Virus record (IMG/VR): IMGVR_UViG_3300031877_000318
Span: 1 to 40,762 of that record
Length of the DNA stretch: 40,762 nt
Origin: a virus
Strand: one strand, 5' to 3'
Positions 1,458 through 40,762 of this stretch are shown piece after piece (position 1 is the first letter of the stretch; each line of letters opens with the position of its first letter). The notes under the pieces were generated by a model, which saw nothing but the letters and a program-made list of their open reading frames with translations, searched no databases and was not told the origin of the DNA. Made by a program: the position numbers and the translations under genes.

Positions 1458-3855
1458 GAATGGAACCATAATACAAGGCGACGGAAAAAGTCAAGGGGAA
1501 GTTGATGTGGAGACGGCGGCGAGGATTTTAAAAAGGGCGCCATGCACAATTCGGCGGATGTTCAGGCGGGGGAAGATCGAGGGCCATTATATCTCATCGG
1601 AGAAAGGCGGGGGGATGGGTGGGAAGAAATTACTGATCAGGATATCGGGAGATCAGGAGAGCAGGGAATCAGGGGATCAGGGGATCGGGAAATCAGGGGA
1701 TCTCGTAGAGTCGAGTCTCCGACAGGAGATCAGGGAACCAGATAAAGAAGAAATCGAGAAAGGCAAGGGAGGAATGGAAGTCGTTGAGTCGTTGAGTCGT
1801 CGGGTTATTGGGTCGGAGACGGAGGGCCGGGAATTGCCTATCATTGGGCCTAAAATTGAAGTTATCAGCGAGAAAAATATGCGGGTTGGGAATTTGCGGG
1901 CCGATTTGCTGCGCCAGTTAGAGCTGAATTTAGCCGAGAATGGCCGGGATCGGACCGAAAAGATTCAACGGTTTCTTAATGCCTACAATTCCGGCCTTCT
2001 TTTGCCTGCCATTTTTTCCAAAATTGGGGAAATATCCCGGGCCACATTATATGAATGGATGGGCGCCATGAATCATGGCGGCATTCAAGCCTTAGCGCCG
2101 CGGTATGGAGCGGCAGAGTCCTGCCGGATCACAGAAGACGAAAAGAATATCCTCCTCTCGTTGGTCCTGAATCAAAACAAAATTAAGGTCGGCTCGGCGA
2201 TCCGGATGATGAAATATCTCTTAGAGAAAAGGAAGATCGATTCGCCCTCGAGCGATTCTACCCTACGCCGATGGGTGGAGGGATTCAAAAAAAATCATTT
2301 CGACAAATGGATTTTGTTCCGCGAGGGCGAGAAGGCCCTGAACGATCAAGTAACTCCATACATCGAGCGGGACCGCGAACTCTTGGAGGTGGGCGAGGGC
2401 CTGGTGGCCGATGGCCATCGGTTGAATTTCAACGCGATCAATCCCTTCACGGGCAAACCGTGCCGCCCCGCGATGATCCTCTTTTGGGATTGGCGGTCAT
2501 CATATCCTGTCGGTTGGGAGATCATGCTACAGGAGAATGTACAATGTATATCTTCGGCCCTCCGAATGGCCATTATTACCCTCGGCAAGATGCCCAAGTG
2601 GGTTCTAATCGACAACGGAAAAGCCTTCAAAGCCAAGGTTTTTAATTCCAAAATCGACCTCGAGGAGGCTGGGTTATTCGGAATGTATGCCCGGCTGGGC
2701 ATCCGGACGCATTTCGCCATGCCCTACAATGCCCAATCCAAGCCCGTGGAGCGGTTTTTCAGGACTTTTACGGATTGGTTTGAGCGGATGATTCCATCTT
2801 TCGTCGGCTCATCGATCGAGGATAAGCCGGCATATATGAAACGCAACGAGAAACTTATGCGGCGTATCCATAACGATTGGGTCCCGACCATCCCGGAGGC
2901 GATGGAGATGATGGCCAAATGGCGCGAATTTTACATCGATCAGCCATCACGGGGATTGAAAGGGAAGACACCCAGAGAAGTCTTTGGGTCATTGAGTCGT
3001 GGCGTCGTTGGGTCGGAGATTGACCTGGCCGATCTGCATTATTTAATGATGGCGATGGAAATCCGGACCATCCACCGCAACGGGGTCACATTCCTCGGGC
3101 GGCACTGGTATGACGATTCACTTTACGGCCTCCGAGATCGCGTTACCATACGGTACTCTTTTTCCGACCTGAGTCAGATCTACGTCTTTACGAGCAAGGG
3201 TGAATTTCTTGGTGCGGCCAGGCCCGTGACTCCCGTACATCCCATGATCTGCGAGGACGGGGATCCCCACGACATGGAAATTTTAAAACGCGAAATGACC
3301 AGGAAACGGTCTCTTAGGCGAGAGACCATCAAAGTCGCCAGGATGATTGGAGATAAGATCGACGCCGTCCTGCCCATGCGCGAGATCGTCGCGCAGATCC
3401 CAGATGTGGTGGGGGCTATTGAAAAGGCCCAGACGGAGATGCATCCGCCAGCGCTGAATCCGTCGCCCTTCCTCGAGGGCGAGGAAATGCAGGTCCCCTC
3501 ACCCCGGCCCTCTCCCGCAAGGGGCGAGGGAGGAATAAAGGAGTCCAGTTCCGCAAGGGGCGAGGGAGGAATAAAGGAGTCCAGTTCCGCAAGGGGCGAG
3601 GGAGAAATAGGTGAAGAAACCGGCTCGAGGTCGCCGCTTTCGGGGCCGTGGCAGCCGGATTCGCCGTCGAGACTCGAATGGTATGAAAGGCAGCATCCCG
3701 CAATGCTGACGGAAGCGGACAGATCATGGATTGAGGATTACAAAGTAACCCTCGAATACAACGCCATCTATGGTTCGCAGGATGGCCAAAGCCGGCTGGC
3801 GCACATCAGATCATTGAGACCTGAGAATTGCGGAGGGAGAGGAGGCAATACATGA
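1456..3855 (+). CDS. A: Mu-type DDE transposase (A protein)
   Basis: This is the strand-transfer enzyme for integration and replicative transposition of the phage. Start 1456 is preferred over the TTG at 1435 because AGGGGG lies nine bases upstream; the product has 799 residues. Residues about 15-63 form a helix-turn-helix/excisionase-like domain (EVDVETAARILKRAPCTIRR). The catalytic triad is visible as D319 (VADGHRLNF), D386 (LIDNGKAF) and E432 (KPVERFF). The D-D spacing of 67 equals that of MuA (269 to 336). A beta-barrel domain follows (about 520-585), then a basic helical segment (about 606-630) like MuA domain III. Repeat-derived, low-complexity stretches sit at about residues 64-95, 108-123 and 680-720, all in frame. 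The gene ends in an ATGA overlap with B. Confidence 0.95.
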   Translation: MNGTIIQGDGKSQGEVDVETAARILKRAPCTIRRMFRRGKIEGHYISSEKGGGMGGKKLLIRISGDQESRESGDQGIGKSGDLVESSLRQEIREPDKEEIEKGKGGMEVVESLSRRVIGSETEGRELPIIGPKIEVISEKNMRVGNLRADLLRQLELNLAENGRDRTEKIQRFLNAYNSGLLLPAIFSKIGEISRATLYEWMGAMNHGGIQALAPRYGAAESCRITEDEKNILLSLVLNQNKIKVGSAIRMMKYLLEKRKIDSPSSDSTLRRWVEGFKKNHFDKWILFREGEKALNDQVTPYIERDRELLEVGEGLVADGHRLNFNAINPFTGKPCRPAMILFWDWRSSYPVGWEIMLQENVQCISSALRMAIITLGKMPKWVLIDNGKAFKAKVFNSKIDLEEAGLFGMYARLGIRTHFAMPYNAQSKPVERFFRTFTDWFERMIPSFVGSSIEDKPAYMKRNEKLMRRIHNDWVPTIPEAMEMMAKWREFYIDQPSRGLKGKTPREVFGSLSRGVVGSEIDLADLHYLMMAMEIRTIHRNGVTFLGRHWYDDSLYGLRDRVTIRYSFSDLSQIYVFTSKGEFLGAARPVTPVHPMICEDGDPHDMEILKREMTRKRSLRRETIKVARMIGDKIDAVLPMREIVAQIPDVVGAIEKAQTEMHPPALNPSPFLEGEEMQVPSPRPSPARGEGGIKESSSARGEGGIKESSSARGEGEIGEETGSRSPLSGPWQPDSPSRLEWYERQHPAMLTEADRSWIEDYKVTLEYNAIYGSQDGQSRLAHIRSLRPENCGGRGGNT
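1634..1743 (+). repeat. GATCAGG repeat block 2, inside the transposase gene
   Basis: Degenerate units such as GGGAGATCAGG, GGGAATCAG and GGGGATCAG run through the 5' part of the transposase gene. They are read in frame as a Ser-Gly-Asp-Gln-rich linker after the helix-turn-helix domain. A 21-mer of another repeat family (1703-1723) interrupts the block. This looks like host-type repeat DNA tolerated in an interdomain linker. Confidence 0.85.
1703..1723 (-). repeat. 21-bp repeat GTCGGAGACTCG-family, inverted copy
   Basis: This is an exact reverse complement of the 21-mer present three times at 16,517-16,579 and once at 23,883-23,903. Here it is read in frame in the transposase linker. The unit is itself an imperfect palindrome centred on AGACTCGACTCT. 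Confidence 0.85.
1783..1825 (+). repeat. TTGAGTCGT..TTGGGTCGGAG repeat, copy 1
   Basis: GTTGAGTCGTTGAGTCGTCG followed by GGTTATTGGGTCGGAGA codes for a Val-Val-Glu-Ser-Leu-Ser-Arg stretch in the transposase. A related copy lies at 2987-3022 in the same gene. Confidence 0.7.
2987..3022 (+). repeat. TTGAGTCGT..TTGGGTCGGAG repeat, copy 2
   Basis: GGTCATTGAGTCGTGGCGTC followed by GTTGGGTCGGAGA matches the copy at 1783-1825 and is read as GSLSRGVVGSE in frame. It lies between the catalytic core and the beta-barrel of the transposase, a place where an insertion would be tolerated. Confidence 0.65.
3497..3612 (+). repeat. 36-bp tandem repeat with CTCTCCC..GGGGCGAGGG element
   Basis: A CTCACCCCGGCCCTCTCCCG element leads into two tandem copies of a 36-bp unit (GGCGAGGGAGGAATAAAGGA...) and a partial third. 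They are read in frame as two 12-residue ARGEGGIKESSS units plus a partial one near the transposase C-terminus. Because 36 is a multiple of three, copy number can change without breaking the gene. The leading element resembles an interspersed repeat found in many environmental bacterial genomes. Confidence 0.85.
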
Positions 3856-4526
3856 AAGATAAGTTCGTCCAGACAAAAAATGTACGGCGATTTCGCGGCG
3901 CGGTCGAGCATATCAACCATAGGTTGAAGGGCGTGGAGCGGATGGCGCTGGTCTTTTCTGATCCTGGCCTTGGAAAGACAGAGACGGCCCTACACTATGC
4001 GGCCAATAATTCGGCGATTATGATTCGGACGAAAAAGCTCATGTCGGGCCGCTGGCTTTTAGAGGAGATTGTGGAGGAGTTGGGGGCTTCTCCCGCCTGG
4101 AGAACCAAGGAGCTCTTCAACCAGGCCGTGAATCTTCTGGGCAGCCGGCCGCGTACGATTATTTTGGACGAGGTGGATTATTTTACCTCCGATTCCAAGG
4201 TTATCGAGACGCTGAGAGATTTGCACGATATCGCTCATTGCCCGATGGTTTTCATCGGCATGGGCCAGGCCGACAAGAAACTGATGCGATACACACACCT
4301 CTACGACCGCTTCGTCGAGGTGGTGAAGTTCGAAAAGCTGGATCATGAGGATGTCCAGCTTATGTGCAAGGAGCTTTCGGATGTCGAATTTCTGGCGGAT
4401 GCCGTCGATCATATCGCCTTCGAGAGCGGCGGAACGATCCGGAAGATTATCGCCCTGATTCACCGCGCAGAAAAAGTCGCGGCGGCCAACAGGGCCAAGA
4501 GTGTGGGGGCGAAGGATTTTAAATAA
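3852..4526 (+). CDS. B: MuB-like AAA+ ATPase, target DNA activator (B protein)
   Basis: The ATG at 3852 follows GGAGG at six bases and overlaps the transposase stop as ATGA; the product has 224 residues. It carries a Walker A motif DPGLGKTETA (residues 37-46) and a Walker B motif IILDEVDYF (about 103-111), with a sensor-type segment VFIGMGQ after it. MuB proteins bind DNA as ATP-dependent filaments, choose transposition targets and stimulate the transposase. The length is shorter than Mu B (about 312), because the Mu N-terminal DNA-binding extension is missing; it resembles the compact B proteins of other Mu-like phages. It is coupled to the transposase and to the winged-helix gene that follows. 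Confidence 0.9.
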   Translation: MKDKFVQTKNVRRFRGAVEHINHRLKGVERMALVFSDPGLGKTETALHYAANNSAIMIRTKKLMSGRWLLEEIVEELGASPAWRTKELFNQAVNLLGSRPRTIILDEVDYFTSDSKVIETLRDLHDIAHCPMVFIGMGQADKKLMRYTHLYDRFVEVVKFEKLDHEDVQLMCKELSDVEFLADAVDHIAFESGGTIRKIIALIHRAEKVAAANRAKSVGAKDFK

Positions 4527-11023: not shown

Positions 11024-12443
11024 GAAAGATCCCCTCATCCCATTAACCGCCTACCAGCGGCGTTGGGTAGAGGATCGCAGCCGTTTCAAGGTCGGCAGGG
11101 TGACGCGGCAGGGTGGAAAGACTTTTGCGGCCACGCTTGAGGCCGTATTAGATTGCTACGAGAGAGTGACGAAGTGGGTCTGCCTGTCGCGCGGCGAAAG
11201 ACAGTCGAAAGAGCTGATCGCCCAGGCTAAGATCCATGCCAAGGCGATCGGGGCGGCCGTCGAGGAGATCGAGGGCCTCTTTAAGGGCGAGGAGGCCGAA
11301 TATAAAATGTTGGAAATCGTCTTTCCCAATGGCTCCCGGATAATCGGCCTCCCGGCGAATCCGGACACGGCCCGGGGCTGGTCCGCTAACATTCTCCTGG
11401 ACGAGTTCGCCCTACACAAGGACAGCCGGGCGATCTGGCGGGCGCTTTACCCCACCATTACCAGGGGATACAAGGTTCGCGTCATATCAACCCCCTTCGG
11501 CAAGAAAAATAAATTTTATGAATTATGCACGGCCGACAATGGATACGCCAAGCACGTAGTGCCGATCCAATTAGCGGTGAAGGAGGGATTGATCCTCCGG
11601 GATGAGGAAGGACATCAATCGACGATCGAGGACCTAAAAAAGGGCTTCGGCGATGATGAGGGATGGGCGCAGGAATACGAGGTTGAATTTTTGGACGAGG
11701 CCACCGCATTCCTCACCTACGACCTGATCGCCTCCGTGGAAGCGGAGCAGGCCGAGGAGTCGCCGGAATGGGCCTTGTCGCTTAGCCAAATGGCCAAGGA
11801 GGCCTATAAAGTCTATCTGCGCACCAAGACAGACCCCCCGTGGGGAGAATTGCGCGGACTGACCAGCCTCCCGGGCTTCGAGGGGGTCCTTTACACGGGA
11901 ATGGATATCGGGCGGAGGCGCGATCTTACGGTCATCTGGCTGGACGAGCAAAAGGACGGCGTGGCCTGGACCAGGGCCGCGATCGAGCTTATAAAACAGC
12001 CCTTTTTCATCCAAAAATACATCCTTTTCAGCTTTTTGAGCCACCCGAAGATGCGCCGGGCCTGCATCGATCAGACGGGCCTGGGCATGCAGATGGCCGA
12101 GGAGGCCCGGGAGAAATTCGGGGAGGGCAGGGTCGAGGGCATCGACTTCACGGCGGCCAACAAGGAAGCCCTGGCAACGGGCCTGAAGCAGGATTTCGAG
12201 GACATGAAGTCGCGGATTCCGGTCAGCCTGAAGATCCGCAATTCGCTTCATTCCGTGAAAAGATATGAGACCTCGACCGGACATTTCCGCTTCGACGCGG
12301 ATAAGACAGAGGAGACGGGGCACGCGGATCATTTTTGGGCGAAGGCGCTGGCCATGCAGGCGGCAAGCACTCCGGCAACAAAGATCGAATTTCGGAGCAC
12401 GGGCGTAAGGCGGGCTCACGCCGAGATGAGCGGATATATTTGA
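11004..12443 (+). CDS. Large terminase subunit (Mu gp28-like)
   Basis: The 479-residue packaging motor has an N-terminal ATPase with the Walker A-like VTRQGGKT (33-40) and Walker B ILLDEF (130-135, D133-E134), and a C-terminal RNase H-like nuclease beginning GMDIGRRRDLTVI (D301). IDQTGLG (about 353-359) and GHADHFWAKALA near residue 455 supply the other acidic and conserved nuclease positions. It translocates DNA through the portal and cuts concatenated host-linked genomes headful-wise, as expected for transposable phages. The gene overlaps gp27 upstream and the portal gene downstream (TGATG). Confidence 0.95.
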   Translation: MASRGNRKDPLIPLTAYQRRWVEDRSRFKVGRVTRQGGKTFAATLEAVLDCYERVTKWVCLSRGERQSKELIAQAKIHAKAIGAAVEEIEGLFKGEEAEYKMLEIVFPNGSRIIGLPANPDTARGWSANILLDEFALHKDSRAIWRALYPTITRGYKVRVISTPFGKKNKFYELCTADNGYAKHVVPIQLAVKEGLILRDEEGHQSTIEDLKKGFGDDEGWAQEYEVEFLDEATAFLTYDLIASVEAEQAEESPEWALSLSQMAKEAYKVYLRTKTDPPWGELRGLTSLPGFEGVLYTGMDIGRRRDLTVIWLDEQKDGVAWTRAAIELIKQPFFIQKYILFSFLSHPKMRRACIDQTGLGMQMAEEAREKFGEGRVEGIDFTAANKEALATGLKQDFEDMKSRIPVSLKIRNSLHSVKRYETSTGHFRFDADKTEETGHADHFWAKALAMQAASTPATKIEFRSTGVRRAHAEMSGYI

Positions 12444-14983
12444 TGAACGCGAAAAAGGCAAAGAAGAAGCCGGAGATCAACGAGATTGCCACGACGGCGA
12501 AGGATATCGACATCTTCGCCGGATGGATCAATCGCCTGGAGAATCCCGATCCGGTATTGCGCTCGGAGGCTGCCGGCAAAGGGATCAAATTATATGACGA
12601 AGTGAAACGCGACACGCACGCCGGCGGCGTGCTCGACAAACGATACCGGACTGTGGTGGGAAAAGAATGGGAGGTCATCCCCGCAACTGAAGAATCCAGG
12701 GACATGAAGATCGCCGATTCCGTAAAAGAAGTTCTGCTGGCTACCAATTTTGACCTCGGGCGAGAGAAATTATTGTCGGCCATTCTTTACGGTTATGCGG
12801 TGTCGGAAATAATGTGGCAACTCTCCGAAGGAGATATCTGGATCGATCGATTCTTGGATAAGCATCAGAGGCGTTTCATTTTCAGCCCCGAAAGGGAATT
12901 AAGGCTTCTTACCCGCCAGAGTATATTCGACGGAGAGCCAGTGACGGATCGGAAATTTATTCAATTCACCTATGGCTCTGCGGACAATCCGTACGGTGAA
13001 GGCCTGGGACAAAGATTGTGGTGGCCGGTATGGTTCAAGAAAAATGGGATCAAATTCTGGGTGATGTTCGCAGAGAAATTCGGCGGCCCTACGGGCATAG
13101 GAAAATATCCCCCCGGAGCGCTCAAAGAGGATCAGGATAAATTACTCGATGCCATTAACGCGATCCATCAGGAGACCGGAGTCATTATCCCGGAGAATAT
13201 GGCGATCAACCTGCTGGAGGCGACGCGATCCGGGACGATCAACACCTATGAAACGCTGTGCAATTTTATGAATGCGGAGATTTCCAAAGCCGTCCTGGGC
13301 GGCACCTTGACTACCGAAATCGGAAAGACGGGCGGCGCCTATGCGGCGGCAGAGACTCATTTCGAAGCCGAGCAAGGAATAATCAAGGCCGATGCGGATG
13401 CGCTCTGTGCCTGCCTGAACAAATCCGTGATACGGTGGCTGGTGGACTACAATTTTCCAGACATCCAAAAATATCCCCAGATCTGGGTCCGGACAGAGCC
13501 GGCGCAGGACTTAAAGGCCCTGGCTGAGAGAGACAAGACTCTGGTGAAAGATATCGGCGTGCCCGTCAGCAAGAAATATTTTTACGATACCTATGGCATC
13601 CCCGAGCCGCAGGAGGGGGAAGAATTGGTATCGGTGCCGGCGCCGGCAACTCCGTTTGGCTTCGCGGAATTCGCCGAGATTTCAGCGGACCTCGAAGTAT
13701 CGATGGAGCAGCAGAGGCAACGGCTGGTTTCGGAATATTTCTCCCGCCTATCTGCGGCCTTTGGGGGTTTGCGAGAAGACGCCCTGCGGCAAATCCAAGA
13801 GGCGCTTTTGCGGTCGCCGGGGATGACGGAGCAGGAGTTTACGTCCGGCGTCTATAAGATCTTAAAAACGATTTATAGCGGGATCTCCGAGGAGGCCGTG
13901 CGCAAAGCCGTCTCGCCGATCTATTCCTTTTATAGATTGTCCGACAAGGCCGCCTGGGCTGGAGAGATGCCTGGCGTGGCCATCTCCTTTGATGCTGTAG
14001 ATCGCGGAACCATTGAAGCTCTCACCAAGATCGACAGGTATTACCTCTCCAAATTCATCGATAACCAGGATATGCAGGATTCATCGATGAAATTTTTGAA
14101 GGAGCAATACCTGGAAAAAGGAGCGGGATTGTTTGGCCGGGGCAATGAGCAGGATATAGCGGGATTCCGGGCGCAATTTGGGGATGAGCTGAAAAACCTG
14201 GAGGATTGGCAGATCCGCCGGATTACCGATACATCTGTCTCGCGGATGCGGTCGCTCGGAGATCTCCGCCAGGCCGTGCAGGGCAGGACGGATGTTCGGG
14301 TGTATGTGACGCGCGGGGAGCGGGCCTGCGATATTTGCAAGCCGCATCACGGCGAAATAATCCGGGCGGATCGGATGGAAACGCGGATGTTGACCGCCGC
14401 GAAAGATCCTGAAAAATTCGGCGTGTTCAATGAGGTCCCGCCGTTTCATCCGAATTGCGTCTGCCGCCTTTTAATGCAATCTCCGTCTCAGTATCGTGAA
14501 ATATCGGACGAACAGCATCGGGCGATAATGGCAGCTCTCCGGGAAGAGGGCAAGTTGGAAGATGATCCATTGAGGGAGGAAAATCGAAAATGTCACGAGG
14601 CTGAGGAGATTTTCAACTCTGCCAAGGAAAAATATGAGGGACATCTAAAAGCGGAAACTATTTACAAGAAAAAGATGTTAGAGGGAGGAGAAGGATATAA
14701 TCCACATTCTGACGCCGTGAGAATAGCCCGAAAAGAGATGGAGGTAGCATCGGGGAAACTTGCCGACGCTCGCATTCGTTTGGCAGAGGCCAAGGAACAC
14801 AAAGAATGGACAAAAGAAGAGACCCAGAAAAGAAGGGGAAAATGGAACTCCATGATAAAGGACTGGATAACCAAAAATCCCGGGAAAAAAATTTCAGGAG
14901 AACAATTCCGAAAATTTGAAACTGAAGCCGGCTTCCAACTCCATATCCTAAAAAAACATATAGAGAGGCATGGATTGCAATGA
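12443..14983 (+). CDS. Portal (DUF935) fused to MuF head-morphogenesis domain, with C-terminal extension
   Basis: One 846-residue chain starts at the TGATG overlap with the terminase. Residues about 1-435 are the Mu gp29/DUF935 portal (EVKRDTHAGGVLDKRYRTVV, TGGAYAAAETHFEAEQGIIK, YDTYGIPEPQEGEE). Residues about 450-690 are a MuF (gp30) domain with its CDICKPHHGE (C629) and PPFHPNCVCRL (C672) signature. In Mu these are separate proteins. Residues about 695-846 are an extra helical, lysine-rich region ending FQLHILKKHIERHGLQ. MuF proteins of other phages can carry C-terminal toxin domains; the last motif resembles the opening of BECR-fold nucleases, so a truncated toxin is conceivable. Two leftward genes begin 16 bases after the stop. 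Confidence 0.9.
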   Translation: MNAKKAKKKPEINEIATTAKDIDIFAGWINRLENPDPVLRSEAAGKGIKLYDEVKRDTHAGGVLDKRYRTVVGKEWEVIPATEESRDMKIADSVKEVLLATNFDLGREKLLSAILYGYAVSEIMWQLSEGDIWIDRFLDKHQRRFIFSPERELRLLTRQSIFDGEPVTDRKFIQFTYGSADNPYGEGLGQRLWWPVWFKKNGIKFWVMFAEKFGGPTGIGKYPPGALKEDQDKLLDAINAIHQETGVIIPENMAINLLEATRSGTINTYETLCNFMNAEISKAVLGGTLTTEIGKTGGAYAAAETHFEAEQGIIKADADALCACLNKSVIRWLVDYNFPDIQKYPQIWVRTEPAQDLKALAERDKTLVKDIGVPVSKKYFYDTYGIPEPQEGEELVSVPAPATPFGFAEFAEISADLEVSMEQQRQRLVSEYFSRLSAAFGGLREDALRQIQEALLRSPGMTEQEFTSGVYKILKTIYSGISEEAVRKAVSPIYSFYRLSDKAAWAGEMPGVAISFDAVDRGTIEALTKIDRYYLSKFIDNQDMQDSSMKFLKEQYLEKGAGLFGRGNEQDIAGFRAQFGDELKNLEDWQIRRITDTSVSRMRSLGDLRQAVQGRTDVRVYVTRGERACDICKPHHGEIIRADRMETRMLTAAKDPEKFGVFNEVPPFHPNCVCRLLMQSPSQYREISDEQHRAIMAALREEGKLEDDPLREENRKCHEAEEIFNSAKEKYEGHLKAETIYKKKMLEGGEGYNPHSDAVRIARKEMEVASGKLADARIRLAEAKEHKEWTKEETQKRRGKWNSMIKDWITKNPGKKISGEQFRKFETEAGFQLHILKKHIERHGLQ

Positions 14984-14999
14984 AAGCCGGCCCGCTTAA

Positions 15000-15335
15000 T
15001 TATAATTTTCTGGGCCTTCCCCCTAGCCGTCCATTTTCCCGTGCAGCGGCAGCCTTGCGCCTTGTTTTGGCTAATCCTCCCTTGCGCCCCATTGTGGCGG
15101 CCATTTTAGCGAGGCTCACCTCGGCTTCATTTGCTGAGCCTTCGACGATTCCTGGTCCCACGGCGGCAACCGCTTCTTGGACGATGCGGTACCACTCCCC
15201 AAGATTCTCGGCTTTTTCCAGTCGGGCGACGGTATCCACAAGTCCGTCTTTCAGCAGAAGATTTTTTACGGTCGGCCTTTTGGATTTATTGGGCCATTCG
15301 AAAAGGATATCATACGATCTTTTTGTCCATCCCAT
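15000..15335 (-). CDS. Leftward cargo gene 2: basic protein with KGG/AT-hook-like tail (111 aa)
   Basis: The ATG at 15,335 lies six bases after a perfect AGGAGG; an in-frame ATG at 15,341 touches the ribosome binding site and is rejected. The product begins MGWTKRSYDILFEWPNKSKR. A helical middle follows, and the end is strongly basic: MGRKGGLAKTRRKAAAAREN then GRLGGRPRKL, a repeated KGG/GRP pattern suited to DNA minor-groove binding. It is the second gene of a two-gene operon read against the late genes. A self-regulator, like the Aca protein that follows anti-CRISPR genes, or an antitoxin are possible, but no helix-turn-helix is obvious. Convergent with the portal-MuF gene at 16 bases. Confidence 0.7.
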   Translation of the reverse strand: MGWTKRSYDILFEWPNKSKRPTVKNLLLKDGLVDTVARLEKAENLGEWYRIVQEAVAAVGPGIVEGSANEAEVSLAKMAATMGRKGGLAKTRRKAAAARENGRLGGRPRKL

Positions 15336-15360
15336 CTCCATCCTCCTTTCGATCTTTAGT

Positions 15361-15699
15361 TTAGGCGGTGCAATCGCCATAGCACCAGGTGCCACATTTC
15401 GGGCAAATACCACTTTTCAGGAGATTTTGAACCCGCTCGTCCTCATTTCTGAGATGTGCGAGAACTTTTTCTTCCGCTTTCTTCGCCTCTTCGGCCTCCA
15501 GCGCGGCGAACGCCCGAAGGAGTGCCCGCATCTCACGGACCAACTCAGTATCGGGGGCGCATTGCAGGTAAACCCAGTGAATTCCAACTTGCCCGATTGT
15601 ATTGTCATGCGGCGATCCGGGAGGCACGATCAATCCATAATAGCCAGGACTAATCGTATTATGCACGTACCGTTTGCCATTGCGCTCGATCGTTGTCAT
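15361..15699 (-). CDS. Leftward cargo gene 1: small protein with C-terminal zinc ribbon (112 aa)
   Basis: GAAAGGAG lies before the ATG at 15,699. The N-terminal half is beta-rich (MTTIERNGKRYVHNTISPGY and YGLIVPPGSPHDNTIGQVGI), the middle is an alanine- and glutamate-rich helix (about 55-90), and the C-terminus has four cysteines, GICPKCGTWCYGDCTA, as a compact metal site. It is the first gene after a consensus promoter at 15,736-15,764, so it can be expressed in the lysogen apart from the late operon. The family is not recognised. Being small, separately promoted and inserted among head genes, it is a candidate moron, for example an anti-defence protein. Confidence 0.7.
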   Translation of the reverse strand: MTTIERNGKRYVHNTISPGYYGLIVPPGSPHDNTIGQVGIHWVYLQCAPDTELVREMRALLRAFAALEAEEAKKAEEKVLAHLRNEDERVQNLLKSGICPKCGTWCYGDCTA

Positions 15700-15735
15700 T
15701 GTCCGTCTCCTTTCTCCGTCTTTTCTTATACTTAT

Positions 15736-15764
15736 AATATAATCCAAGCGGTTGGGTTTGTCAA
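15736..15764 (-). promoter_or_regulatory. Near-consensus promoter of the leftward cargo operon
   Basis: On the minus strand, TTGACA (15,759-15,764) is followed by a 17-nt spacer and TATATT (15,736-15,741). This is the strongest sigma70-type promoter I see in the phage part of the window. The leader to the ATG at 15,699 is about 30 nt and contains a direct repeat TATAAG TATAAG. It would oppose rightward late transcription. Confidence 0.8.
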
Positions 15765-15847
15765 GCATTTTTTTGGATCTGGGAAAATTATTTTCGCTGT
15801 CGGCTTCAGGGCAGGGCAAGAATCGTGCCATAAGTGGATTTTTCGAG

Positions 15848-16291
15848 ATGGAAATTAAGACGGAGATAAAAATATCCGAGAATCTCCTTAAACTTGGAGA
15901 TCGGGCGGAAGCAGGGATCGAGGCCGGACTTTTGCGGGCTGCCGGCGCCGTGGAGGCGGCAGCCGTTGAGGAGGCGCCCAAGGCGACGGGGAATCTGGCT
16001 GATGCAATCAGAAAATATCTGAGCTATGGAGAAAAAAAGGCGGTCGTGACATCGACGGCGCCGTATTCGATTTTTGTTCACCGAGGGACAGGGATCTATG
16101 GACCATATAAAATGCCGGTCGTGCCCACGACAAAAAAAGCCCTGGCCTTTAAAATCGGAGATAAATTGATTATCCGCCGGAGCATCAAAGGCATGAAGCC
16201 CAATCCGTTCATGACCCGGGCGTTGAAGAGAGTGGAATCCCGCTTGCGCGAGATTTTCATGGCGGGCTTTGAGAGCGCAATGAAAGGATAG
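15848..16291 (+). CDS. HK97 gp10-like head-tail/tail completion protein
   Basis: The 147-residue product begins MEIKTEIKISENLLKLGDRA and contains EAPKATGNLADAIRKYLSYG, STAPYSIFVHRGTGIYGPYK and IKGMKPNPFMTRALKRVE. This is the HK97 gp10 family pattern (NAPY..VHxGT, then KGxxPNPFxxxAL). Such proteins complete the head-tail interface. The ATG at 15,848 has only a weak CGAG upstream; a longer reading to 15,752 would run into the leftward promoter and has unnatural residues. It resumes the late operon after the leftward cargo. Confidence 0.75.
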   Translation: MEIKTEIKISENLLKLGDRAEAGIEAGLLRAAGAVEAAAVEEAPKATGNLADAIRKYLSYGEKKAVVTSTAPYSIFVHRGTGIYGPYKMPVVPTTKKALAFKIGDKLIIRRSIKGMKPNPFMTRALKRVESRLREIFMAGFESAMKG

Positions 16292-16294
16292 ATT

Positions 16295-17761
16295 ATGCCA
16301 TACGCGAAAAAGGAGGAATTGCCCGACGCGGTGAAGGCCCTTCCGGAACATGCGCAGGAAATCTGGATGGCGGCTTTTAATTCCGCTTGGGAGCAATATA
16401 AGGGCGACGAGGAAAGGTGTTTCGCCGTGGCCTGGGCGGCCGTGAAAAATAAATACAAAAAGGAAGGAGAAAATTGGAAGCAATATAAGGGCGACTGGGT
16501 GCCCCTTGAACACGGCGTCGGAGACTCGACTCTACGAGTCGGAGACTCGACTCTACGAGTCGGAGACTCGACTCTACGAGAAGGCCTTGAGGGCTGGGTC
16601 GAGATCTTCCGCACCGGCGAACATACGGATTCCGCGGGCAATATAAAAAAATGGACCGAAGAAGATCTTGATCAGATCACGGCTCGATACAATCCGGCCG
16701 AACACGAGGCGCCGGTTGTCATCGGGCATCCCGTGGGAAACGCCCCGGCATTCGGCTGGGTGGAGGCCGTGAGGCGGGAAGGACAATTCCTCTACGCTAA
16801 ATTCAAAAACCTCGTTCCCGAATTTGTGGATATGGTGAAAAAGGGATTATTTAAAAAGCGATCGATGTCCGTATACCAAGACGGAACGCTGCGGCATATC
16901 GGCTTTCTGGGTGCGATGCCTCCGGCTGTTAAGGGATTGGCGGACATAAAATTTGAAGCCGAGAAAAAGGCGATCACGATTGAATTTGAGCAGAAGAGAT
17001 GCCGACACCTGAATGAGGACGACACGTTTAAGGGAGGGTTTGATGGCTGCGTGGAGCACATGATGAGCTGCGAGGGCCTGAGGGAGGAGAATGCCAGAAG
17101 GCTTTGCGCATATATCGGAAGGAAGGCGGGAAAGATCGAGTCCGCAGAATCAAAGCAAAAAGGAGGTATGAAGATGAATTTCAAGGAATGGTTAAAAGGA
17201 ATCTTCACGAAGGCAGTCGATGCCATGCCGGATGGAGACTTGCAACCTCCGGCTCCGCAGACTTTCAGCGAGGCTGAAGTGAGAGCGCGGGAGGCCGAGG
17301 CGGTTAAAAGAGCCAAAGAAGAGAAAGACCGGGAATTCGCCGAGCAGAAAAAGAGAGAGGCCAAGGAGCGAAGGGCGGGGGAGGTTAAATCCTTCTGTGA
17401 GATGTTGCTCAAAGAGGGAAAGATCATCCCGGCATGGATGAAATCGGGACTACAGGAATTCCTGACCTCTTTGGATGGAGAAGAGTCGTTGGAATTCGAC
17501 GAGAAAAAAGAGAAGGCCTCACGGCTTGAATGGATGAAGAATTTTCTTTCCAAATTGCCAGAAGTCGTGAACTTCAGGGAGATAGCCAAGAGGGATGAAG
17601 CTTTCTCTGGGAATGCCGGAGAAAAGCTGAATCAACTTGTCCGGGAGAAGATGGAGAAGAAAAAGGATCTCTCATACAATCAGGCCTTCTCTGAGGTCCA
17701 GATTGAAAATCCCGACCTGGCCAGGGAATACCAGGAGGAAATCAGGCCGACTAAGAAATAA
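16295..17761 (+). CDS. ChaB-like domain fused to Mu I-type head protease and scaffold
   Basis: The 488-residue product starts three bases after the previous gene. Residues 1-58 are a ChaB-like domain (MPYAKKEELPDAVKALPEHA, QEIWMAAFNSAWEQY). Residues 75-95 are three identical VGDSTLR units coded by a tandem 21-bp DNA repeat. Residues about 98-235 resemble the Mu gpI maturation protease (APVVIGHPVGNAPAFGWVEA, LFKKRSMSVYQDGTLRHIGF). Then comes a Cys/His-containing link (GFDGCVEHMMSCEG, RRLCAYIGRKAGKI) and a charged scaffold region (294-488). The protease would remove the scaffold during capsid maturation. A second start inside the gene gives the scaffold alone. Confidence 0.85.
   Translation: MPYAKKEELPDAVKALPEHAQEIWMAAFNSAWEQYKGDEERCFAVAWAAVKNKYKKEGENWKQYKGDWVPLEHGVGDSTLRVGDSTLRVGDSTLREGLEGWVEIFRTGEHTDSAGNIKKWTEEDLDQITARYNPAEHEAPVVIGHPVGNAPAFGWVEAVRREGQFLYAKFKNLVPEFVDMVKKGLFKKRSMSVYQDGTLRHIGFLGAMPPAVKGLADIKFEAEKKAITIEFEQKRCRHLNEDDTFKGGFDGCVEHMMSCEGLREENARRLCAYIGRKAGKIESAESKQKGGMKMNFKEWLKGIFTKAVDAMPDGDLQPPAPQTFSEAEVRAREAEAVKRAKEEKDREFAEQKKREAKERRAGEVKSFCEMLLKEGKIIPAWMKSGLQEFLTSLDGEESLEFDEKKEKASRLEWMKNFLSKLPEVVNFREIAKRDEAFSGNAGEKLNQLVREKMEKKKDLSYNQAFSEVQIENPDLAREYQEEIRPTKK
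16517..16579 (+). repeat. Three perfect tandem copies of the 21-bp GTCGGAGACTCG repeat, in frame
   Basis: Copies at 16,517-16,537, 16,538-16,558 and 16,559-16,579 are identical and are translated as VGDSTLR three times, between the ChaB-like and protease domains. Identity at every base shows recent duplication. Other copies are at 1703-1723 (inverted) and 23,883-23,903. Confidence 0.95.
17174..17761 (+). CDS. Nested scaffold protein (Mu Z-like) from an internal start
   Basis: Within the protease gene, AAAGGAGGT (17,159-17,167) lies seven bases before an in-frame ATG at 17,174. This would give a 195-residue protein, MNFKEWLKGIFTKAVDAMPD and on, made of a highly charged helical region (ARAREAEAVKRAKEEKDREF-like) typical of scaffolds. 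In Mu and in many phages the scaffold is produced in just this way from the 3' part of the protease gene. The very strong internal ribosome binding site is the direct evidence. Confidence 0.7.
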   Translation: MNFKEWLKGIFTKAVDAMPDGDLQPPAPQTFSEAEVRAREAEAVKRAKEEKDREFAEQKKREAKERRAGEVKSFCEMLLKEGKIIPAWMKSGLQEFLTSLDGEESLEFDEKKEKASRLEWMKNFLSKLPEVVNFREIAKRDEAFSGNAGEKLNQLVREKMEKKKDLSYNQAFSEVQIENPDLAREYQEEIRPTKK

Positions 17762-38389: not shown

Positions 38390-38477
38390 TGGTGCCTGGG
38401 ACCGGAATCGAACCGGTACGGTGCTGAGCACCAAGGGATTTTAAGTCCCTTGCGTCTACCAATTCCGCCACCCAGGC
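38390..38477 (-). tRNA. tRNA-Leu (UAA)
   Basis: On the minus strand a full cloverleaf begins GCCTGGGTGGCGGAATTGGT and ends with the acceptor CCCAGGC, discriminator A and an encoded CCA (38,390-38,392). The anticodon loop CTTAAAA gives UAA. A long variable arm (GGTGCTCAGCACC) marks a class II leucine tRNA. The T arm GGTTCGATTCC is standard. This is host DNA and marks the right side of the prophage. Confidence 0.95.
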
Positions 38478-38497
38478 ATATGGGTCAGTGTTTTTTT

Positions 38498-38525
38498 ATT
38501 ATATTGTTCCCCTATTTTTTTTCAA
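38498..38525 (-). promoter_or_regulatory. Promoter of the tRNA-Leu gene
   Basis: On the minus strand TTGAAA (38,520-38,525), a 16-nt spacer and a perfect TATAAT (38,498-38,503) lie about 20 bases before the mature tRNA 5' end. Confidence 0.7.
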
Positions 38526-38615
38526 GGCATTTTTGGCGGCAAATTTTTCCCCTTGGAAAAAGGGAATTTCTTTGATATTTTACTTTGAAGAAGGCTGGTG
38601 AAAGCTGGAGGTCCA

Positions 38616-38879
38616 ATGGAAACGGAGAATGGAGAGACAACCAAGAAACCTGAAGAAGCAAAAATTTCTTCCCCTGATCAAACGCTTCCGCCAGAGGAGC
38701 CCATCGTATTGAAAAAGCTCTACCCCGAGGCCAAACAGGACCTCGACGCTCTCTTTCCGGAACCCCCCATGAAAAAGCTGCTCAAAGATTTGGCCCGCAC
38801 TCGGCGAAAGAACGAACGCTTCCTGAAAAGAATCAACCTTGGAGAGATCTCCTCTGAAGAGGAAGACGAATCAGGCTAA
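38616..38879 (+). CDS. Host hypothetical acidic protein (87 aa)
   Basis: GGAGG lies six bases before the ATG at 38,616; a GTG at 38,598 is less likely. The product (METENGETTKKPEEAKISSP and on) is rich in Glu, Lys and Pro, appears disordered in its first half, and has a basic helix (KKLLKDLARTRRKNERFLKR) before an acidic end. No family is recognised. It is divergent from the tRNA gene and has a weak promoter candidate, TTGGAA-17-TATTTT, just upstream. Confidence 0.6.
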   Translation: METENGETTKKPEEAKISSPDQTLPPEEPIVLKKLYPEAKQDLDALFPEPPMKKLLKDLARTRRKNERFLKRINLGEISSEEEDESG

Positions 38880-38987
38880 ATTCTGGCGCACGACAAAAAA
38901 ATAATTCTGGGAATTCTTTCCGCTATTGTCCTGGGGCAGTGAAGGGGAGCAAGCTCAGAAGTCAGGGTCGCTCAAGGTCAAAAGAGA

Positions 38988-39032
38988 TGGAGGCGGCACC
39001 CGGATTTGAACCGGGGAATCGCGGTTTTGCAG
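38988..39032 (-). pseudogene. tRNA-Cys 3' half (attachment-site-like remnant)
   Basis: On the minus strand CTGCAAAACCGC, then the T arm CCCCGGTTCAAATCCGGGTG and the acceptor GCCGCC, U73 and CCA, reproduce tRNA-Cys(GCA) from the anticodon loop to the 3' end. The 5' partner is missing: GCGGT and GGCGGCA do not precede it, though GGCCTTGTGGT upstream faintly recalls a D arm. A 3' tRNA half starting at the anticodon loop is the typical trace of site-specific integration by a tyrosine recombinase. Confidence 0.75.
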
Positions 39033-39223
39033 GGCGTTCAGATGGTAACCACAAGGCCTCGATATTGCTTATGTTTTAATAGGTTATGTCCAATCTGTGG
39101 GCCGCAATCGCCCGCCAAATGATTTAAACGCAGTCCCGTTTTGACACCATGCGGACACCGTTGACCGGCAATCTGGACACCAGCAAGCTGCTAAACCCGC
39201 CGCATAACCCGTCTATAAAAACG

Positions 39224-39250
39224 AAAGCCAGCTTGATGAGGGCTGGTTTT
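39224..39250 (+). terminator. Terminator-like hairpin
   Basis: AAAGCCAGC (39,224-39,232) pairs with GCTGGTTTT (39,242-39,250) over nine base pairs with one G-U pair, and ends in T residues. The A-rich opposite side would let it work in both directions. Confidence 0.55.
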
Positions 39251-39364
39251 CATAGACTGACGACTTCACCTACACTTCAGCCAAGGGCTTCTTTACTGAC
39301 TGATCATTACGGGTAAAATTGCGTGGCCCGATTCAATAAATGTTATCGATATCGAAAGCTTATC

Positions 39365-39424
39365 GATGATCAGGATACAGATGGAGATATTGCAGATAAC
39401 GCGAATATTTGTCCAAATGTCTGA
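39365..39424 (+). pseudogene. Remnant of a thrombospondin type-3 repeat protein gene
   Basis: The frame reads DDQDTDGDIADNANICPNV then stop, close to the DxDxDGxxDxxDxCPxV calcium-binding type-3 repeat. An in-frame stop 60 nt upstream and the lack of a start show that only a fragment remains. Confidence 0.55.
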
Positions 39425-39467
39425 AACACAGTAAAGAAATCTTAAAATGCTGATCCATAAAGATTTT

Positions 39468-40460
39468 TTATTTAGGAGGCGGGGTCTTTTCGGGCGGGGG
39501 AGGAAGCTTTTCTACCTTCACTTTTGAAATCCTTTGCCCTATCATTTCCACAACACTAATTCGCTTCTCTTCTATAACTACGGTCTCGCCAACTTGCGGA
39601 ATCTTCTGCAATACCGTCATCAGGAATCCTCCAAGGGTTTCATATTCCGGCGATTCCGGAAATTGCAGATTAAAGTCTTCCCTTAGATCCCTCAGACTGA
39701 CGGAGGCATCGATCTGCATGGTCCCGTCAGCAAGTTTCACTACTGGATTTTCAACATCATATTCATCGCGAATCTCTCCAACGATTTCTTCTAATAGATC
39801 CTCGATGGTCACCAGACCCGAAATTCCTCCATATTCATCTACCGCCAAAGCCATATGGCTTCTCTTCCTTTGCATTTCTCTTAATAAGAGACTGATTTTC
39901 ATGGTCTCGGGGATGGAAAAGGGGGCCTTAATCATTTTACGGATATCGACATCCCCCGTTCTTGCAAGATTCGTGAGGAACTCTTTGGCATGAAGCACCC
40001 CCCGAATATCATTCAGCCCTTTTCCAAAAACCGGGTAACGCGAGAATTGCTCCACTTCAATGAGTGCCATGATATCTTTTGGGGTCTGATCGATCTGAAT
40101 TGCTACCATCCCGGTGGCTGGCACCATGACCTCTTTGACTGACATGTCTGTGAATTCAAAAATGCTTTGGAGGATTTTTTCTTCCGTCGGCTCGAATACG
40201 CCATGCTTTCCCCCTTCTTTGATCAGCAACTTCACCTCTTCCTCAGTGACGTATGCCCGTTCGGTAAAAGGTTTTCTCCCCGAAGGGCTGAGCACAATGG
40301 CCGTACTGAAGGTAAGGATTTTGACAAAAATGTTGGAAACTTTTGAAAAAATATCTATCGACCTTGCTGTGCGCAGGCCTATGGCTTCAGGATGGGCCAA
40401 GGCGATCGACTTCGGCACCAATTCTCCGAAAATCAAAGAAAAATACGTAATAATGACCAC
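39468..40460 (-). CDS. CorC/HlyC-type transporter-associated protein, C-terminal part (frameshifted gene)
   Basis: This 330-residue frame, read from a GTG at 40,460, holds the end of a CNNM/DUF21 membrane domain (ITYFSLIFGELVPKSIALAH). Two CBS repeats follow (MVPATGMVAIQIDQTPKDIM and HMALAVDEYGGISGLVTIED), then the CorC_HlyC domain (LRDLREDFNLQFPESPEYET). The family is linked to divalent cation, mainly magnesium, homeostasis. The missing N-terminus is found in the next frame just upstream (40,469-40,762), so one gene has been split by a single-base shift near 40,461-40,470. It could be a true mutation or an assembly error. Confidence 0.85.
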   Translation of the reverse strand: MVIITYFSLIFGELVPKSIALAHPEAIGLRTARSIDIFSKVSNIFVKILTFSTAIVLSPSGRKPFTERAYVTEEEVKLLIKEGGKHGVFEPTEEKILQSIFEFTDMSVKEVMVPATGMVAIQIDQTPKDIMALIEVEQFSRYPVFGKGLNDIRGVLHAKEFLTNLARTGDVDIRKMIKAPFSIPETMKISLLLREMQRKRSHMALAVDEYGGISGLVTIEDLLEEIVGEIRDEYDVENPVVKLADGTMQIDASVSLRDLREDFNLQFPESPEYETLGGFLMTVLQKIPQVGETVVIEEKRISVVEMIGQRISKVKVEKLPPPPEKTPPPK

Positions 40461-40468
40461 GACGATTC

Positions 40469-40762
40469 CTACTTGATGGGGACTTTTTGTAGGATTGGTT
40501 TAATAACTTCGATTGCCGCTGCCCCTCCAATCGCCGAGGCGAGGACTCCTACAATCGTAATGCCAATCTGGATGGTGGCCAGAAATCGGTCCGGTTCTTC
40601 CTTGAGTTTCAAAAATATTTTCGCATTCTTTTTTCCGGCTTCCGCCAACTGTTTGATATGGCTTTTCCGAGCCGTTACCACCGCAATCTCTGTTCCAGAT
40701 AAATAACCATTCACGAGAATGAGAATAAAGATCAAAAATATGTCAATAAAAAGGTCATCCAT
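40469..40762 (-). CDS. CorC/HlyC-type protein, N-terminal part (frameshifted gene)
   Basis: From the ATG at the window edge (40,762) the frame codes for 97 residues, MDDLFIDIFLIFILILVNGY, then LSGTEIAVVTARKSHIKQLA and LATIQIGITIVGVLASAIGG, the start of a DUF21/CNNM membrane domain. It stops at TAG directly before GGAATCGTCG. Removing the one-base shift would read on as VGIVVVIITYFSLIFGEL in the downstream part, giving about 430 residues, the usual family length. Confidence 0.8.
   Translation of the reverse strand: MDDLFIDIFLIFILILVNGYLSGTEIAVVTARKSHIKQLAEAGKKNAKIFLKLKEEPDRFLATIQIGITIVGVLASAIGGAAAIEVIKPILQKVPIK

Follow-up and report, generated by a model that had tools for sequence, protein, structure and literature searches.

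What two small genes are doing on the opposite strand inside the head operon of a transposable phage, and how their expression is controlled, is the question raised by this locus. The stretch of DNA analyzed (IMG/VR virus record, 40762 bases, hereafter the window) is a transposable Mu-like siphophage that encodes MuA, MuB, Gam and terminase. Its head genes follow the Mu order: a portal-MuF fusion, a gpG-like neck protein, a protease, a scaffold and the major head protein. In a first-pass annotation, two leftward genes of 112 and 111 residues had been placed between portal-MuF and the gp10-like/protease genes, and this layout was borne out (Table 1). Both genes have good ribosome binding sites, with AAAGGAG preceding the ATG of gene 1 and AGGAGG that of gene 2, and both display gene-like codon-position GC with a dip at position 2. 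The rightward ORF overlapping them (14980-15858) displays a flat codon-position GC. At the other end of the record, positions 38400-40762 appear to be a host-like flank, the record seemingly running past the right end of the phage. By eye this flank holds an apparent tRNA-Leu, and a CNNM/CBS transporter gene lies there in two pieces (39468-40460 and 40469-40762).

Table 1. Positions of the genes, motifs and regulatory elements at the locus, as numbered in the window.
Feature	Position	Strand	Remarks
Portal-MuF fusion	12335-14983		Ends at 14983, before the leftward pair
171-residue C-terminal MuF extension	14468..14983	+	Within the insertion; without known relatives
Insertion relative to nearest phages	14478..15847	.	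In those phages MuF ends ..CVCRLVMNI-stop, with the gpG start 43 nt on
Gene 2 (P0002, 111 aa)	15000-15335	-	Predicted autorepressor; helical N-terminal domain and basic tail
Gene 2 tail module, residues 79-111	15003..15101	-	Pattern G..GG......K......NG..GGRP
Gene 1 (P0001, 112 aa)	15361-15699	-	Candidate cargo; a long helix is predicted, and the C-terminus has a zinc knuckle
Gene 1 C-terminal motif CPKCGTWCYGDC	15370..15405	-	Invariant in six aligned relatives except one Trp/Tyr position
-10 hexamer TATATT	15736..15741	-	
Putative operator AACCCAACCGCTTGGATT	15741..15758	-	1 mismatch in 18 against consensus AACCYAANCGNTTRGGTT; fills the -35/-10 spacer
-35 hexamer TTGACA	15759..15764	-	
HK97-gp10/Mu-gpG-like gene	15848-16291		
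Protease gene	16295-17761		

The insertion in the head-gene region

The MuF/gpG junction was compared with that of the nearest relatives, L010 and L011 (at 70%), L034 (at 64%), and L035-L038 and L063 (at ~55%). In these phages MuF terminates in ..PPFHPNCVCRLVMNI-stop or similar and gpG follows near-immediately (43 nt past the stop in L010); none of them has leftward genes between MuF and gpG. In the window the junction is split by an inserted stretch of ~1.3 kb, in which MuF runs 171 residues further and is followed by the leftward pair. The cassette is thus inserted cargo, with its own promoter and absent from all close relatives, which upholds the earlier proposal of a variable moron or cargo locus. 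L043 has a different gene at the MuF/gpG gap, a rightward gene of 177 aa with a winged-HTH look (by eye). L010 holds an HNH endonuclease-type gene (3431-4036) between gpG and protease that is absent in the closely related L011, which suggests that the head region gained or lost this gene recently. Since neighboring gaps hold other cargo in these relatives, the region is a variable insertion zone. Leftward genes that greedy ORF maps displayed in L043 and others were rejected as antisense ORFs.

The MuF extension belongs to the same insertion as the leftward pair, a point that goes beyond the first-pass annotation. Among the near relatives it is present in the window phage alone, and its GC content is lower, at about 45%. 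It had no match in Pfam, PHROGs, NCBIfam, PADLOC, PDB, phages or plasmids. A toxin domain of the MuF polymorphic toxin kind was suspected in the extension and then set aside, as no domain match was obtained.

The gene 2 tail and the promoter palindrome

Both genes had been described as unrecognized, and neither protein matched a family in Pfam, PHROGs, NCBIfam or PADLOC. For gene 2, direct homology searches were also empty in PDB, phages and plasmids, and no HTH family, the mark of an Aca protein, was found by Pfam, NCBIfam or PHROGs. Searches with gene 2 return its C-terminal tail alone (C-terminus GRKGGLAKTRRKAAAARENGRLGGRPRKL), carried by otherwise unrelated proteins whose lengths range from 42 to about 260 aa and which include DUF2442 proteins adjoining DUF4160. 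In 19 tail proteins, positions G83, G86, G87, K94, N101, G102, G105, G106, R107 and P108 (P0002 numbering) are invariant, and the window gene 2 has every one of them. The AlphaFold2 model of P0002 (pLDDT 75, moderate confidence) predicts a helix at 62-88, a turn, a helix at 92-103 and an extended GGRPRKL arm. With the same moderate confidence, and in outline only, the modeled tail resembles a small helix-turn-helix extended by a minor-groove arm. A fold search with the model gave no significant match among solved structures (PDB). The tail has no domain model in Pfam, PHROGs or NCBIfam, and searching the open-access literature for tail peptides and operator strings yielded no relevant paper.

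The leftward promoter reported earlier, TTGACA-17-TATATT (15764-15736), scored 11 of 12 and ranked first among 5 sites in 2 kb; shuffled sequences average 1.9 sites at the lower threshold of 9 of 12. What had not been noted before is that its spacer is palindromic, and that the same palindrome turns up in unrelated phages. The operator was spotted by comparing the window promoter with that of L148, an unrelated phage in which the tail gene belongs to a three-gene cassette that is placed between the two terminase subunit genes, small and large, and is transcribed in the opposite direction to them. The two spacers match (AACCCAACCGCTTGGAT and AACCTAAACGCTTTGAT). In a scan of all examined loci the palindrome AACCYAANCGNTTRGGTT was found upstream of many tail genes. 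Promoters scoring 9-12 of 12 contain 13 of 17 sites, as compared to 0.9% of random positions, and the palindrome usually fills the 17-bp spacer. A dimer bound to it would exclude RNA polymerase. Some tail genes placed under the palindrome encode just 42-54 aa, little beyond the tail, and the N-terminal parts of the tail proteins have no mutual similarity except in two DUF2442 proteins. The tail is therefore the common unit and, for the same reasons, the most economical candidate for the unit that recognizes the palindrome.

The pairing of tail and palindrome was assessed by forward and reciprocal tests. For the forward test, 19 dereplicated genes were picked by protein tail only. A palindrome with at most 3 mismatches was present within 1.3 kb upstream of 11 of these genes, as against 0 of 1065 control stretches taken from their own loci, a comparison that is partly circular in that the consensus was read from some of the same loci; per-gene shuffles were also run. 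No palindrome was recognizable within 1.3 kb of the other 8 genes; two tail genes on Acidithiobacillus plasmids likewise had none in the stretch examined. For the reciprocal test, which is the cleaner of the two, the viral collection was scanned for the palindrome plus WT with proteins ignored, which gave 29 further viral loci. A tail HMM trained on tail-selected loci only was then run on their 2241 ORFs. It matched 20 ORFs in 19 of the 29 loci, about 14 of these matches being distinct non-seed genes. All 20 share the strand of the site and end 0.2-1.5 kb downstream of it.

Ten of the 29 palindrome loci had no tail gene by the tail HMM. In one of them (L171) the contig breaks off 190 bp past a perfect promoter; promoter scores below 9 were obtained for the seven other distinct loci tested. 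Some palindrome matches without tail genes are explained by terminator-like sites: in L177, L178, L181 and L182 the palindrome is followed by T runs, as in an intrinsic terminator. Among 198 Desulfobacterota genomes the palindrome, searched without the WT suffix, occurred once, at position 3720 of contig 257 in G204, with a tail gene 0.5 kb downstream at 4243; this gene is one of four tail genes in 395 Desulfobacterota genomes. A stricter operator pattern with the WT suffix returned zero sites in 247 genomes because the sole real site reads GGTTTA.

The window carries both a tail and a promoter palindrome in one operon and so belongs to the tail/operator group. As far as sequence comparison reaches, the insertion is established, and so is the pairing of tail and operator in occurrence, order, strand and geometry. 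This strong comparative pairing argues for the earlier suggestion that gene 2 acts as a repressor.

Companions of tail genes and relatives of gene 1

Tail operons carry different genes elsewhere. L172 holds a HicA-HicB pair with the tail on HicB. In L134, L135 and L137 (Desulfobacterota), a DUF4160-DUF2442 pair lies downstream of the palindrome, with DUF2442 as the tailed member. In phage MW202801.1 (L191) a perfect operator precedes an operon of an ArdC anti-restriction gene and a tail gene. The cassette of L148 is also found in L146 and L157, again with promoter and operator and transcribed against the terminase subunit genes that flank it; it consists of a 114-aa gene, the tail gene and a 217-aa gene. 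The last of these (L148) looks phospholipase-D-like by eye, yet has no Pfam match. The remaining tail-operon genes are small unknowns, and the tail gene may be the only gene of its operon or be accompanied by ardC or by several genes.

The gene order of the window recurs in BK063671.1 (L194, 854-1917), where a zinc-knuckle protein with the motif CFSCESYCHGDC is followed by a tail gene under a promoter with TTGACA and a degenerate site (four mismatches). The host of BK063671.1 is given as Methanomicrobiales, though its TTGACA promoter looks bacterial; either the case is archaeal or the host assignment is wrong. In L140 a zinc-knuckle gene and a tail gene lie 1 kb apart. L161 (11593-12998) has the operator, a 215-aa protein, a 121-aa unknown and a tail gene in one operon, and by eye the 215-aa protein resembles the N-terminal part of the zinc-knuckle protein of L141.

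Gene 1 had no match by direct homology in Pfam, PHROGs, NCBIfam, PADLOC, PDB, phages or plasmids, and a toxin-family match was sought without success. Searched as a DNA pattern, its CPKCGTWCYGDC motif was found in eight viral contigs. One 124-aa protein aligns with gene 1 over almost its whole length (33% over 104 columns), and the motif is also found at the end of proteins whose N-terminal region differs (L140, L141, L143). In 395 Desulfobacterota genomes the search for P0001 relatives gave a single weak match, with stops inside. The predicted structure of P0001 (pLDDT 65) was too poor for a fold search; profile and structure searches, as proposed in the first-pass annotation, left both proteins without a family match and P0002 without a fold match. 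Relatives of gene 1 adjoin other small genes. In L142, L143 and L145 the related zinc-knuckle genes adjoin small proteins that by eye resemble ribbon-helix-helix regulators, as if the type of regulator beside zinc-knuckle genes were exchangeable. Gene 1, a zinc-knuckle gene recurrent in phages, is best read as the cargo or effector of the cassette.

Control of the cassette and its meaning

The explanation that best accounts for the locus, and that we hold with good confidence, is a self-regulated cargo (moron) cassette with a tail-type autorepressor. The leftward promoter would drive the zinc-knuckle cargo gene 1 together with gene 2, whose C-terminal tail of about 33 residues would bind the palindrome in the -35/-10 spacer and so block RNA polymerase. 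When the phage enters a new cell, where repressor is absent, a burst of cargo would be followed by shutdown, as in acr-aca operons and as with antitoxins on toxin-antitoxin operons. We infer tail binding, repression and the burst, as well as an action of gene 1 on the host. Most probably gene 1 would be a counter-defense factor; this is favored because the logic matches that of acr-aca operons and because a sister operon carries ardC. The best reading of gene 2 is an Aca-like or antitoxin-like autorepressor with a putative DNA-binding tail that is absent from domain libraries.

The reading that comes nearest to this one makes gene 1 a toxin and gene 2 its antitoxin, with neutralization by the helical N-terminal domain of gene 2 and autoregulation of the operon by the tail, so that the autorepressor part is common to both explanations. 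This is unlikely but has to be taken seriously because other sister operons are toxin-antitoxin pairs. Tails are found on HicB and DUF2442 proteins adjoining HicA and DUF4160, DUF4160/DUF2442 (DhiTA) is a reported toxin-antitoxin system (PMC8198452), and the toxin-first gene order fits. However, gene 1 has no toxin-family match and its relatives adjoin other small genes, and a tail gene may occur elsewhere alone, with ardC or with several genes.

MuF proteins with C-terminal toxin domains are known, and the MuF extension could be an ejected effector, with the leftward genes as its immunity gene and regulator, expressed in the lysogen. The joint absence of extension and pair from all near relatives agrees with this. 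It is nonetheless improbable, as the extension has neither a toxin-domain match nor any relatives, an immunity gene would usually come next on the same strand, and the tail/operator pairing occurs elsewhere without MuF. It is quite improbable that the palindrome is the site of a host-wide regulator and that tail genes merely share mobility with it. Palindrome and tail genes do both spread horizontally, but there is a single site among 198 genomes of the host phylum, located at a tail gene. The tail-only genes of 42-54 aa directly under the site and the strict relation of tail to site in strand and distance also speak against such a regulator. Fixed structural or morphogenetic head genes of the phage group, as the position within the head operon might suggest, are highly improbable given that the pair is missing from every close relative, where MuF lies directly before gpG, and has its own promoter on the opposite strand.

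The favored explanation, a self-regulated cargo cassette, can be set beside described systems. Acr-Aca operons are similar in combining small cargo and small autorepressor genes in one operon of variable phage regions, with a palindromic operator overlapping the promoter. They differ in that no acr homologue is known at the window locus, and in that Aca proteins are HTH whereas gene 2 has no known domain and recognition is provisionally assigned to its 33-residue tail. All of the described Aca families (12/12) have an HTH domain (PMC9765179), and for HicB the C-terminal domain is described as either HTH or RHH (PMC11594946); gene 2 is therefore not an Aca by family membership, and it would be in its working that it resembles one. 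In L172 the tail gene is a HicB beside HicA, and the HicB C-terminus is where a DNA-binding domain is carried; this HicB has the tail in place of the HTH/RHH, whereas the window genes are neither HicA nor HicB. The tailed DUF4160-DUF2442 pairs with their upstream palindrome correspond to DhiTA, but the window proteins are unrelated to either family.

Accessory and acr genes form plasticity regions in Mu-like phages of P. aeruginosa, and these D3112/DMS3-type regions share with the window a Mu-like phage having small variable genes between core genes (PMC4378225). They differ in having no sequence relation to the window and in that their acr loci use HTH Aca. In archaeal viruses, a shared promoter element, in some cases with inverted repeats, marks putative anti-defense genes (PMC11065993). 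Those genes have other promoters and regulators (wHTH Aca8, leucine-zipper-like proteins), and their motifs are specific to one virus or group, whereas the palindrome described here is common to unrelated phages.

On balance, we lean towards the view that the tail is a previously undescribed, portable DNA-binding domain of ~33 residues with its own 18-bp operator. It would have been joined to unrelated N-terminal domains by phages and elements of several host groups, making autorepressors of toxin and anti-defense operons, and tail plus operator would be a general bait for counter-defense genes. Autorepressors are one of the main handles on anti-defense genes, and current methods seek HTH proteins. 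If this view is correct, HicB-type antitoxins would have a third kind of DNA-binding end, and the tail together with a promoter palindrome would provide a second easy signature, allowing guilt-by-association for many unannotated small-gene operons.
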